NCBI GenBank assembly: GCA_017307505.1
Contig: JAFKEE010000022.1
Span: 62,001 to 126,000 of the forward strand
DNA length: 64,000 nucleotides
Direction of reading: 5' to 3'
Source: Acidobacteriota bacterium
Lineage (GTDB): Bacteria; Acidobacteriota; Terriglobia; Bryobacterales; Bryobacteraceae
Each line of letters starts with the position of its first letter. Position 1 is the first letter of the stretch. This document shows positions 21,798 through 28,009 of the stretch, piece by piece. The notes below the pieces were generated by a model. That model was not told the DNA's origin. It did not search any database and saw only the letters and a list, made by a program, of their open reading frames with translations. The position numbers were made by a program, and so were the translations under genes.

Positions 21798-22595
21798 ATG
21801 GATGACCCAGGTCAAAAGCTAAAGCGTGCTCGGGAGCGGCTGGGGCTGCGCTACCGGGACGTCGAAGAGTTCAGCCAGCAGATCGCCGACCGCCGCAAGA
21901 ACAGCGAGTTTGGTATCCTGCTGAGCCGGCTGTCCGACATTGAGAATCGCGGCGTAGTGCCGAGTATTTTCAAACTCTACTCCCTATGTGCGATTTACCG
22001 TCTGGATTTGGCGGAAGTCGTTCGTTGGTATGGGGTAGAGGTCAGCCAGCTGGCGGCGGACGCGGCGTCGCTGACGCCGGAGAAGTCGCACCTGATCGGG
22101 CTGGGGCGGGAGAAATTCGGATCGATCCAGTCTGGTGACATCCAGGTGCCGTTGTCGCTGGATCCCGGGCTCGACCTGACGAAGACAACATTCCTGACCC
22201 GGTTCATCCAGAGTTGGGGGGTGCTGCCCCTGATGCTGGTGGCGGGTCTGGATCTGAAGAGCCACCGGTACGCCTATGTGGGGACAGACGACTGGTTCAT
22301 GTACCCGTTGCTGCTGCCAGGCAGCCTGCTGCTGCTGGATGAAGGCCGCAAGAGGATCGCGGCGGGCCCGTGGGCAAGCATGGTCGACCGGCCCATCTAC
22401 TTCCTGGAACACCGGGACGGCTGGATGTGCGGATGGTGCAGCCTGGTGGACGATTCGCTGATTGTGCAGCCGCATCCGGCGTCGGGCTGCGCGCCCGTCG
22501 TATTTCAGTATTCGTCCGAGGTGGATGTAATCGGGCAGGTTACCGGGGTCGCGAATCGGATGGACGGCGGCCCCCCGAGGCGTACTCGTTCTTGA
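21798..22595 (+). CDS. XRE-type helix-turn-helix protein with unknown C-terminal domain
   Basis: 265 residues. Residues 5-75 form an HTH resembling the XRE class (KLKRARERLGLRYRDVEE ... SRLSDIENRG). The rest (about 100-255) is a beta-rich domain with PLLLPGSLLLLDEGRKRI, reminiscent in shape of S24/LexA-like sensor domains, but the Ser/Lys protease residues are not evident. It probably regulates nearby genes; targets unknown. The 3' end overlaps the convergent gene at 22540 by 56 bases. A clear ATG at 21798 has no strong ribosome-binding sequence. Confidence 0.75.
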   Translation: MDDPGQKLKRARERLGLRYRDVEEFSQQIADRRKNSEFGILLSRLSDIENRGVVPSIFKLYSLCAIYRLDLAEVVRWYGVEVSQLAADAASLTPEKSHLIGLGREKFGSIQSGDIQVPLSLDPGLDLTKTTFLTRFIQSWGVLPLMLVAGLDLKSHRYAYVGTDDWFMYPLLLPGSLLLLDEGRKRIAAGPWASMVDRPIYFLEHRDGWMCGWCSLVDDSLIVQPHPASGCAPVVFQYSSEVDVIGQVTGVANRMDGGPPRRTRS

Positions 22596-26145: not shown

Positions 26146-27135
26146 TTGCGGAACGTTAAGATCAGTGCGGTTGGCGCGTGGGTGCCGCCGCGCGTACTCA
26201 CCAATGCAGACCTGGAGAAGATGGTCGATACCACGAACGAGTGGATTCTGGAGCGAACCGGAATTCGGGAGCGGCATATCGCTGACCCTGAGATCGCCAC
26301 TTCGGACATGGCGCTGAACGCGGCCCGGATTGCGCTGGCAGAGCGCGGGACGACCGCGGAGGATGTGGATGCGATCATCCTGTGCACGGTAACGCCAGAC
26401 CACATGTTCCCGTCCACGGCCTGTATTGTGCAGCACAAGCTCGGCGCGAAGCATGCGTGGGGTTTCGATCTGGTGGCCGCGTGTTCCAGCTTTGTTTACG
26501 GCTTGACCACCGCCGCCCACCTGGTAGGAAGTGGATCGCACAAGAAGGTACTGGTGATCGGCTCGGACACAATGAGCCGGATCATCGACTACAAAGACCG
26601 CTCGACCTGTGTGCTGTTCGGGGACGGCTCCGGTGCGTTCCTGATTGAGCCCGGGGAAGAGGGCGGCCCTGGCTTCATCGGATTCCGGAATGAACTGGAC
26701 GGGTCGGGCGGGGAAGCGCTGAGGATGCCGGCTGGCGGCTCCAGAATGCCCCCTACGCACGAGACCATCGACCAGAGGCTCCACTTCGTCCACCAGGAAG
26801 GCCAAGCCGTCTTCAAGTTCGCTGTGCGCCGCATGGGCGAGATCAGTTCCGAATTGCTGGCTGCCCACAACCTGAAGCCGACGGATGTGAAGCTGATGAT
26901 TCCGCACCAGGCGAACCGCCGGATCATCCTGGCTTGCGCCGACCGCCTTGGCATTCCGCACGACAAAGTGCTGATCAACATTGAGCGTTACGGCAACACG
27001 ACTTCCGGGACAATCCCGATCGCCACGCGGGAAGCGATGGACACAGGCCGACTGCAGAAGGGCGATCTGGTCCTGTTCGCGGCCGTAGGTGCGGGCTTCA
27101 CGGTTGGCGCCAATCTGTGGCGCTGGGCAATCTAA
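26146..27135 (+). CDS. fabH: Beta-ketoacyl-ACP synthase III
   Basis: 329 residues. The thiolase-fold catalytic triad is C113 (AACSS), H254 (IPHQANRR) and N284 (YGNTTSG), exactly the KAS III pattern. It condenses acetyl-CoA or a branched starter with malonyl-ACP to start fatty acid synthesis. The start is TTG at 26146 with GGGAGG six bases upstream; no ATG fits the family N-terminus better. No other fab gene is adjacent. Confidence 0.95.
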   Translation: MRNVKISAVGAWVPPRVLTNADLEKMVDTTNEWILERTGIRERHIADPEIATSDMALNAARIALAERGTTAEDVDAIILCTVTPDHMFPSTACIVQHKLGAKHAWGFDLVAACSSFVYGLTTAAHLVGSGSHKKVLVIGSDTMSRIIDYKDRSTCVLFGDGSGAFLIEPGEEGGPGFIGFRNELDGSGGEALRMPAGGSRMPPTHETIDQRLHFVHQEGQAVFKFAVRRMGEISSELLAAHNLKPTDVKLMIPHQANRRIILACADRLGIPHDKVLINIERYGNTTSGTIPIATREAMDTGRLQKGDLVLFAAVGAGFTVGANLWRWAI

Positions 27136-27163
27136 CCCAAAGGGTATAGCTTACAACCCGGCA

Positions 27164-27197
27164 CCCCTCCTGATATGCTGAGAGCAGTCAGGAGGGG
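27164..27197 (+). promoter_or_regulatory. Hairpin that buries the ribosome-binding site of the inositol oxygenase gene
   Basis: CCCCTCCTGA (27164-27173) is the exact reverse complement of TCAGGAGGGG (27188-27197), and TGCT/AGCA inside the loop can extend the structure. The 3' arm holds the very strong ribosome-binding sequence AGGAGGGG, five bases before the ATG at 27203. Folding would hide it. There is no T-run, so termination is unlikely; translational control is inferred. Confidence 0.65.
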
Positions 27198-27202
27198 ATG
27201 CC

Positions 27203-28009
27203 ATGTCGACACTCGCCGCGCGTTACCAGGAAGGCCGCAAGACAGAGGAATATCGTCAGTACGACGATGCCACTCCGCCTGTGGTGCGTGAGTTCTACCG
27301 CCTCAATCACACCAACCAGACGGTCGCCTTCAACCAGCAGATGCGCCGTAAGTGGTTGAATCTCGACCACGCAGAGATGAGCGTGTGGGATCTGATGGTG
27401 GAACTGAACAAGCTGGTGGACGACTCCGATCCCGACACCGACCTCTCCCAGATTGAGCACAACCTGCAGACGGCCGAGGCGATCCGTGCGGACGGGCATC
27501 CGCGCTGGTTCCAACTCACCGGGCTGATCCATGACCTGGGCAAGGTGCTGTGGTTGTGGGGCGAGCCGCAGTGGGCCGTGGTGGGCGACACCTTCCCGGT
27601 GGGCTGCGCCTGGTCAAACAAGATCGTCTTCCCGGAGTACTTTGAAGCGAATCCCGATGCGGCGGTGCCGGAGTACCAGACGCGGCTGGGCGTCTATTCC
27701 GAGAACTGCGGGCTCGATCAGGTGAACCTCTCTTTCGGCCACGACGAGTATCTTTACCACGTGGTGAAGAATTACCTGCCGGAAGAGGCTCTGTACATGA
27801 TCCGCTACCACTCGTGCTACCCGATCCACCGGGAGCGGGAGTACGAATACCTCATGAATGAGCATGACAAAGCCATGTTCGACTGGGTGCGGAGGTTCAA
27901 CCCATACGACCTCTACTCCAAGGGCAACACCAAGCCTGACGCAGAGAAGCTGACCCCCTACTACCAGGAACTGATCGCAGAATATTTCCCGGCGAAGATC
28001 CGGTGGTAA
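27203..28009 (+). CDS. Inositol oxygenase (MIOX family)
   Basis: 268 residues of the HD-domain di-iron MIOX family, with metal-binding HNLQTAEAIR, LTGLIHDLGK and FGHDEYLYHV, and the RYHSCYPIHRE segment. The enzyme cleaves myo-inositol with O2 to D-glucuronate, typical of eukaryotes and found in a limited set of bacteria. It is close to the eukaryotic length (about 285) and full-length in the conserved core. No other inositol or glucuronate genes are adjacent. Its ribosome-binding site lies inside a perfect 10-bp hairpin. Confidence 0.9.
   Translation: MSTLAARYQEGRKTEEYRQYDDATPPVVREFYRLNHTNQTVAFNQQMRRKWLNLDHAEMSVWDLMVELNKLVDDSDPDTDLSQIEHNLQTAEAIRADGHPRWFQLTGLIHDLGKVLWLWGEPQWAVVGDTFPVGCAWSNKIVFPEYFEANPDAAVPEYQTRLGVYSENCGLDQVNLSFGHDEYLYHVVKNYLPEEALYMIRYHSCYPIHREREYEYLMNEHDKAMFDWVRRFNPYDLYSKGNTKPDAEKLTPYYQELIAEYFPAKIRW

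Follow-up and report, generated by a model that had tools for sequence, protein, structure and literature searches.

A strong hairpin over the start site of a Bryobacteraceae inositol oxygenase gene may block translation of RNA reading through from fabH

The window, by which we mean the whole stretch of 64,000 nucleotides that was analysed, comes from a bacterial genome of 9.4 Mb and 62% GC (G000) in the family Bryobacteraceae. Within it, a fabH-type ketoacyl-ACP synthase III gene is followed co-directionally by a gene for myo-inositol oxygenase (MIOX), the two being separated by a spacer of 67 nt that is mostly one plain stem; the direct neighbours are fabH, a SprT-like gene and an outer-membrane receptor-like gene. 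The identity of the oxygenase, first proposed from the letters alone, is borne out by matches to PF05153 (E 3e-112) and to the inositol oxygenase structures 2ibn (E 1.6e-74) and 2huo (E 2.2e-73). The original prediction also regarded the enzyme as rare in bacteria, which does not hold within this family, where 124 of 237 genomes carry a match. The genus is represented by nine genomes in our collection; MIOX is present in five of them, and in all five fabH lies directly 5' of it. A literature search on MIOX together with Acidobacteria returned no match. The features of the locus are as follows.

26146 to 27135, + strand: fabH-type ketoacyl-ACP synthase III gene (PF08541/PF08545; exact start uncertain), the proposed source of read-through RNA
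27160 to 27163, + strand: outer 5' stem extension GGCA, pairing with TGCC; pair types differ on both sides in G004
27164 to 27173, + strand: 5' arm CCCCTCCTGA, which is complementary to the ribosome-binding site, varies among relatives and precedes the predicted start of the MIOX transcript
27171 to 27179, + strand: extended -10 element TGATATGCT, the predicted MIOX promoter, overlapping the end of the 5' arm and the loop
27174 to 27187, + strand: hairpin loop, with a small inner stem of TGCT (27176-27179) and AGCA (27183-27186)
27186 to 27202, + strand: predicted 17-nt leader of MIOX's own transcript, with a presumed start near 27186, 6 nt past the -10
27188 to 27197, + strand: 3' arm TCAGGAGGGG, exact complement of CCCCTCCTGA, containing the Shine-Dalgarno sequence AGGAGG
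27199 to 27202, + strand: outer 3' stem extension TGCC, adjoining the start codon and pairing with GGCA at 27160-27163
27203 to 28009, + strand: MIOX (myo-inositol oxygenase) gene, ATG at 27203 (PF05153; 2ibn, 2huo)

The two 10-base arms are exact complements, the 3' arm is the ribosome-binding sequence of the gene starting at 27203 and is sequestered in the fold, and the stem can be extended inwards through TGCT and AGCA, all as originally described. A further extension, outwards through GGCA and TGCC, had been missed; it passes one bulged A (27198) and brings the stem up to the ATG. Folding 55 nt around the site yields 19 pairs and -32.9 kcal/mol, and the z-scores are -3.1 for 105 nt and -6.2 for 75 nt; by folding, then, a stable stem covers the MIOX ribosome-binding site in long transcripts. 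The foot of this stem lies 24 nt after the fabH stop codon. A canonical intrinsic terminator was considered and rejected, in agreement with the original reading: the U-tract is absent after the stem, and no terminator-like site with a U-tract occurs in 26900-27400, so none was seen between fabH and MIOX.

How exceptional is such a hairpin in its own genome? The length of the arms is not the argument. Among 727 gene starts in 864 kb of the genome, called with a home-made gene caller, three have a perfect arm of at least 10 bp nearby, as opposed to 0.4 in mononucleotide shuffles, and position controls give two (100 nt upstream), none (+100) and one (+200), so that long arms are not strongly enriched at starts; only one of the three long-armed starts, that of MIOX, has a strong Shine-Dalgarno sequence (SD). 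Nor did the probability of sequestration, calculated for 100 starts, separate the fabH-adjacent ones sharply (above 0.6 in 12 of 30, two sulfatases included, versus 16 of 70 others), which is why we added the cost of opening, compared with that of a shuffled 5' side. Across about 2 Mb from this genome and its relative G006 (the latter excluding its own MIOX), an SD-like hexamer (at least 5 of 6) stands at 402 of 1651 called starts, and MIOX ranks first of the 402 by the cost of opening its SD: 20.7 kcal/mol, where the second needs 12.8 and the median is 3.8. When the 3' side was held fixed and the upstream side shuffled, none of 300 shuffles matched the observed cost. That the genus might have many hairpins of this sort was considered and rejected for these 2 Mb or so, in which MIOX stands alone at the top of the SD-bearing starts.

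The same shuffling was applied to the 23 MIOX starts whose SD reaches 5 of 6 and to two sulfatase starts, discussed below, whose SDs (GGGAA or AGGAA) were entered by hand. The observed cost was reached by 0 of 300 shuffles in G000, 0 in G006, 2 in G005, 18 in G003, 97 in G004 and 11 in G203, which belongs to another genus. On these counts only G000, G006 and G005 clearly have the strong form; the hairpin is likely, and of moderate strength, in G003 and weak in G203, and that of G004, taken alone, stays within chance. Three other fabH-adjacent MIOX starts with an SD have no hairpin beyond chance (L050, 173 of 300; L139, 290; L142, 255).

At the MIOX hairpin G000, G006 and G005 are near-identical; G005 has two changes in the 5' arm, both of the type tolerated as G-U pairs, and its best fold bulges a neighbouring base. 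G003 retains CCCCTCC/GGAGGGG with a loop 3 nt longer (23 nt between the 7-bp cores, versus 20 in G000), and its stem foot lies only 5 nt past the fabH stop. In G004, a bulged version with a different outer stem forms in the 55-nt fold, and another structure wins in the 105-nt fold. When the stems are aligned on the SD, pair types change on both sides (-2, G-C to T-A; -3, A-T to C-G or G-C), as they do in the outer stem (C-G to G-C, and G-C to C-G); these two-sided changes are supportive only, because each row was folded separately, which leans towards pairing. The original prediction is supported in so far as several relatives preserve the pairing although the sequence itself has changed.

Within the hairpin, TGNTANNCT is unchanged in 6 of 6 aligned species, the invariant columns including TG-N-TA-NN-CT, whilst the 5' arm and the spacing drift around it. 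Extended -10 elements can function without a good -35. A promoter scan that demanded 4 of 6 in each hexamer found nothing at the MIOX hairpin. Considering the 5-nt gap between the fabH stop and the stem in G003, a promoter 5' of the whole stem would there have to lie in fabH. In G203, TGGTATGCT precedes MIOX behind fabH and the hairpin is only weak; most simply, this would mean that the -10 came first and that the arm of the hairpin arose around it later. Nor does the hairpin merely come along with promoters of this kind: of the ten SD-bearing starts in about 2 Mb with an extended -10 at 10-30 nt, the nine besides MIOX have opening costs of just 1.9-7.0.

This element is not confined to one locus. 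We collected 102 MIOX loci, from 100 of the 124 MIOX-bearing family genomes (24 were left out) and two from outside the family, and took as the start the most upstream ATG no more than 75 nt from the match, or else another start codon; L043, L148, L149 and L162 have no start by this rule and were excluded from the motif and sequestration counts, leaving 98. The pattern TG.TA...T ends 0-45 nt before the MIOX start in 28 of the 98; 200 rounds of shuffling gave 3.8 on average and at most 11, and the reverse complement of the same upstream regions has 2. Outside the genus the forward count is 23 of 93. Distances to the start are mainly 20-24 nt, which would leave a short leader, and also 5-9 nt, which is leaderless-like. 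Across genes of this genome with 60 nt free upstream, the pattern occurs in 35 of 365, compared with 10.9 in shuffles and 8 on the reverse complement. As an aside, -10-like elements peak 5-9 nt before start codons both in the MIOX upstream regions and at G000 gene starts, which points to leaderless mRNAs; a literature search on acidobacterial leaderless promoter motifs found no match.

Taken together, we posit that the hairpin is a block against read-through with MIOX's own promoter inside it, a reading we hold to be reasonably probable. RNA polymerase would start by way of the extended -10 at 27171-27179, and the MIOX mRNA so made, with its leader of some 17 nt, would leave the ribosome-binding site free. 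Any RNA entering from fabH, on the other hand, would hold both arms and fold into the 19-pair stem, hiding the ribosome-binding site as far as the ATG, and would not be translated into MIOX. Because the likely promoter lies within the hairpin, MIOX's own mRNA would lack the 5' arm, and the hairpin would act only on read-through RNA; and because such RNA would stay untranslated, MIOX would be uncoupled from its neighbour fabH, if blocking is indeed the function that selection has maintained.

The computed costs fit this division of labour in the genomes with the clearest hairpins, in which the short RNA carries no strong block. At 37 C, exposing the SD and start codon in the window takes 21.0 kcal/mol for the long RNA and 4.3 for the predicted short one; the corresponding pairs are 18.6 and 2.9 in G006, 16.9 and 3.8 in G005, and 9.6 and 4.3 in G003. 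The short RNA gains little in G004 (10.0 vs 7.8 kcal/mol) and G203 (9.2 vs 5.1 kcal/mol), which fit the model less well, and the fabH-adjacent MIOX of G160 (L050) gains nothing (6.0 vs 6.0 kcal/mol).

The position behind fabH may matter more than the gene that occupies it. In G007 (L067) and G008 (L069) no MIOX was found, and a sulfatase gene (PF00884 in G007, with a counterpart 83% identical in G008) follows fabH with a start-site hairpin of its own. The arms of these hairpins are unrelated to those of MIOX and TAAGAT lies in the loop; the fold z-scores are -5.3 in G007 and -1.7 in G008, and 0 and 1 of 300 shuffles, respectively, reach the observed cost. Since the -10 match in both lacks the TG, and a start 6 nt later would fall at or inside the SD, the costs of long and short RNA are not comparable for these two genes. 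In G001 (L065), where MIOX has apparently been lost save for a short C-terminal remnant after fabH, no such hairpin is seen by eye, and in G004, where the order is fabH, MIOX, sulfatase, the sulfatase start has by eye no hairpin of its own; G002, whose sequence breaks off inside fabH, was left out of this comparison. Sulfatase-like sequences are in any case abundant in G000-G008, with 29 to 102 matches per genome (one query, fragments included). These observations suggest that it is the position 3' of fabH that calls for the hairpin, and they speak for a read-through block or a function at the 3' end of fabH rather than for sensing specific to MIOX. Perhaps the start-site hairpin is tied to the place behind fabH and not to MIOX at all, the host chromosome having repeatedly built blocks there in the style of phage T4 - a tentative idea that we would sooner doubt than adopt.

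Several other explanations deserve weighing. One assigns the hairpin to fabH: at the 3' end of that mRNA it would protect against exonucleases or support U-less termination, and its overlap with the MIOX ribosome-binding site would be secondary. This would account for a hairpin behind fabH even where a sulfatase is the next gene, and U-less hairpins after stop codons are indeed common in this genome (73 of 179 gaps between co-directional genes and 49 of 111 between convergent ones, at a threshold too lenient to be decisive). We nevertheless think it unlikely: the 3' arm covers SD and start in the cases seen, the hairpin is missing by eye from G001, where fabH is intact and followed by the apparent MIOX remnant, and the fabH-adjacent, SD-bearing MIOX starts of L050, L139 and L142 show none beyond chance. 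Mere complementarity between a G-rich Shine-Dalgarno sequence and a C-rich spacer upstream of the -10 is a thought invited by a GC-rich genome (62%), by the lack of significance of G004 alone and by perfect 10-bp arms being about equally frequent at starts and control positions. Such an accident strikes us as highly improbable considering that MIOX ranks first of 402 by opening cost, and that 300 shuffles matched the observed cost not once in G000, G006 and the G007 sulfatase, once in the G008 sulfatase and twice in G005.

The inverted repeat could alternatively act as DNA, with a dimeric regulator binding CCCCTCCTGA...TCAGGAGGGG across the -10 and repressing MIOX transcription. It does span the predicted promoter, and members of the family may plausibly regulate MIOX through an operator, because a palindrome, TGCACACGTGTGCA, sits just before MIOX in two other genera. 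A possible regulator may lie kilobases upstream, where a 265-aa ORF (21798-22595, + strand) has a weak match to HTH_31 (E 5e-5, below the Pfam cut-off). What makes an operator quite unlikely here is that the arms and their spacing change between species with the pairing kept (a loop of 20 nt in G000 and 23 in G003, bulges in G004), that no fixed half-site and spacing was found across the relatives, G003 and G004 differing, and that both arm changes in G005 are of the G-U-tolerated kind. Moreover, the exact palindrome with 9-bp arms occurs once in the 9.4-Mb genome, the next site with 14-nt spacing having three mismatches, and the direct neighbours are not regulators. The TGCACACGTGTGCA palindrome, which we take to resemble a LacI-type operator, is perfect or near-perfect in genera g44 and g9 at L013, L146, L156, L158, L168-L171, L178, L180 and L181; TAAT, which is -10-like, follows it in 8 of these 11 loci. 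The remaining candidate is the classical one, in which the whole hairpin lies in the 5' UTR of the MIOX mRNA and is switched by temperature, a ligand or translation of fabH, as the original prediction had it. The ribosome-binding site is sequestered in several relatives, and in G003 the fabH stop is so near the stem (5 nt) that a ribosome finishing fabH could come up against it. The predicted promoter within the stem argues against this reading, and we judge it very unlikely. An RNA thermometer was rejected because opening the SD and start codon of the long RNA, at 21.0 kcal/mol at 37 C, still costs 17.2 at 55 C, which leaves the site inaccessible throughout the growth range and makes thermal control unlikely; a riboswitch of any described family was likewise rejected, as a search of 26900-27500 against Rfam gave nothing up to E 1. 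That temperature or a ligand controls MIOX's own mRNA is not supported; dependence on upstream translation fares differently by genome: it is geometrically poor in the window, because fabH stops 24 nt before the stem foot, too far for the footprint that a terminating ribosome is generally known to have, and it is possible across the 5-nt gap of G003. The original prediction can hence be said to have been confirmed in what it observed and partly supported in what it made of it.

To return to the read-through block, its logic is familiar from mobile genetic elements: in the fold-back inhibition of the IS10/Tn10 transposase, transcripts coming in from outside hide the ribosome-binding site, and the element's own transcripts do not. 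The MIOX model has this logic in common with IS10, which is a mobile element. RNA thermometers resemble the MIOX case in having the ribosome-binding site paired in a hairpin; the MIOX stem is unlike them in being far too stable for physiological melting and in having no Rfam match. The closest parallels come from phage T4, in which, according to the passages on gene e and I-TevI in two reports (PMC3014915, PMC2988022), long transcripts from upstream promoters bury the ribosome-binding site in a stable stem, and late promoters at the stem give short RNA without its 5' strand; for gene e, a 100-fold effect is stated there (PMC3014915, PMC2988022). By folding, the MIOX stem likewise covers a ribosome-binding site in long RNA, and the conserved extended -10 inside it is strong sequence evidence for a promoter whose RNA would lack the 5' strand. 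The two T4 cases, as those passages present them, concern phage genes with early and late timing, served by late promoters and experimentally tested, whereas MIOX is a chromosomal metabolic gene with a sigma-70-like extended -10, known here from sequence and folding. In Bacillus subtilis, the portion of PMC5942855 that deals with sigG proposes that a hairpin of 20+ bp keeps read-through RNA of the spoIIG operon from being translated; RNA initiated at sigG's own promoter is described as unable to form it. There the gene encodes a sporulation sigma factor, and its own short leader is described as having a small hairpin at the ribosome-binding site as well; MIOX, by contrast, lies behind fabH. 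By analogy with these passages, MIOX may work as T4 gene e, I-TevI and sigG do.

Read-through blocks with a promoter in the stem are thus already known from T4 and sigG, and it is the setting at MIOX that is unusual. There is also a warning in this locus: when genomic DNA shows a perfect hairpin at a ribosome-binding site, the gene's own mRNA does not necessarily contain it, and the promoter should be located first. If a chromosomal metabolic gene of a Bryobacterales bacterium does use such a block, this would suggest that the design serves ordinary operon insulation; and if the hairpin is truly tied to its position, it may represent a general way to insulate genes without terminators, whatever gene happens to sit behind a lipid-synthesis gene.
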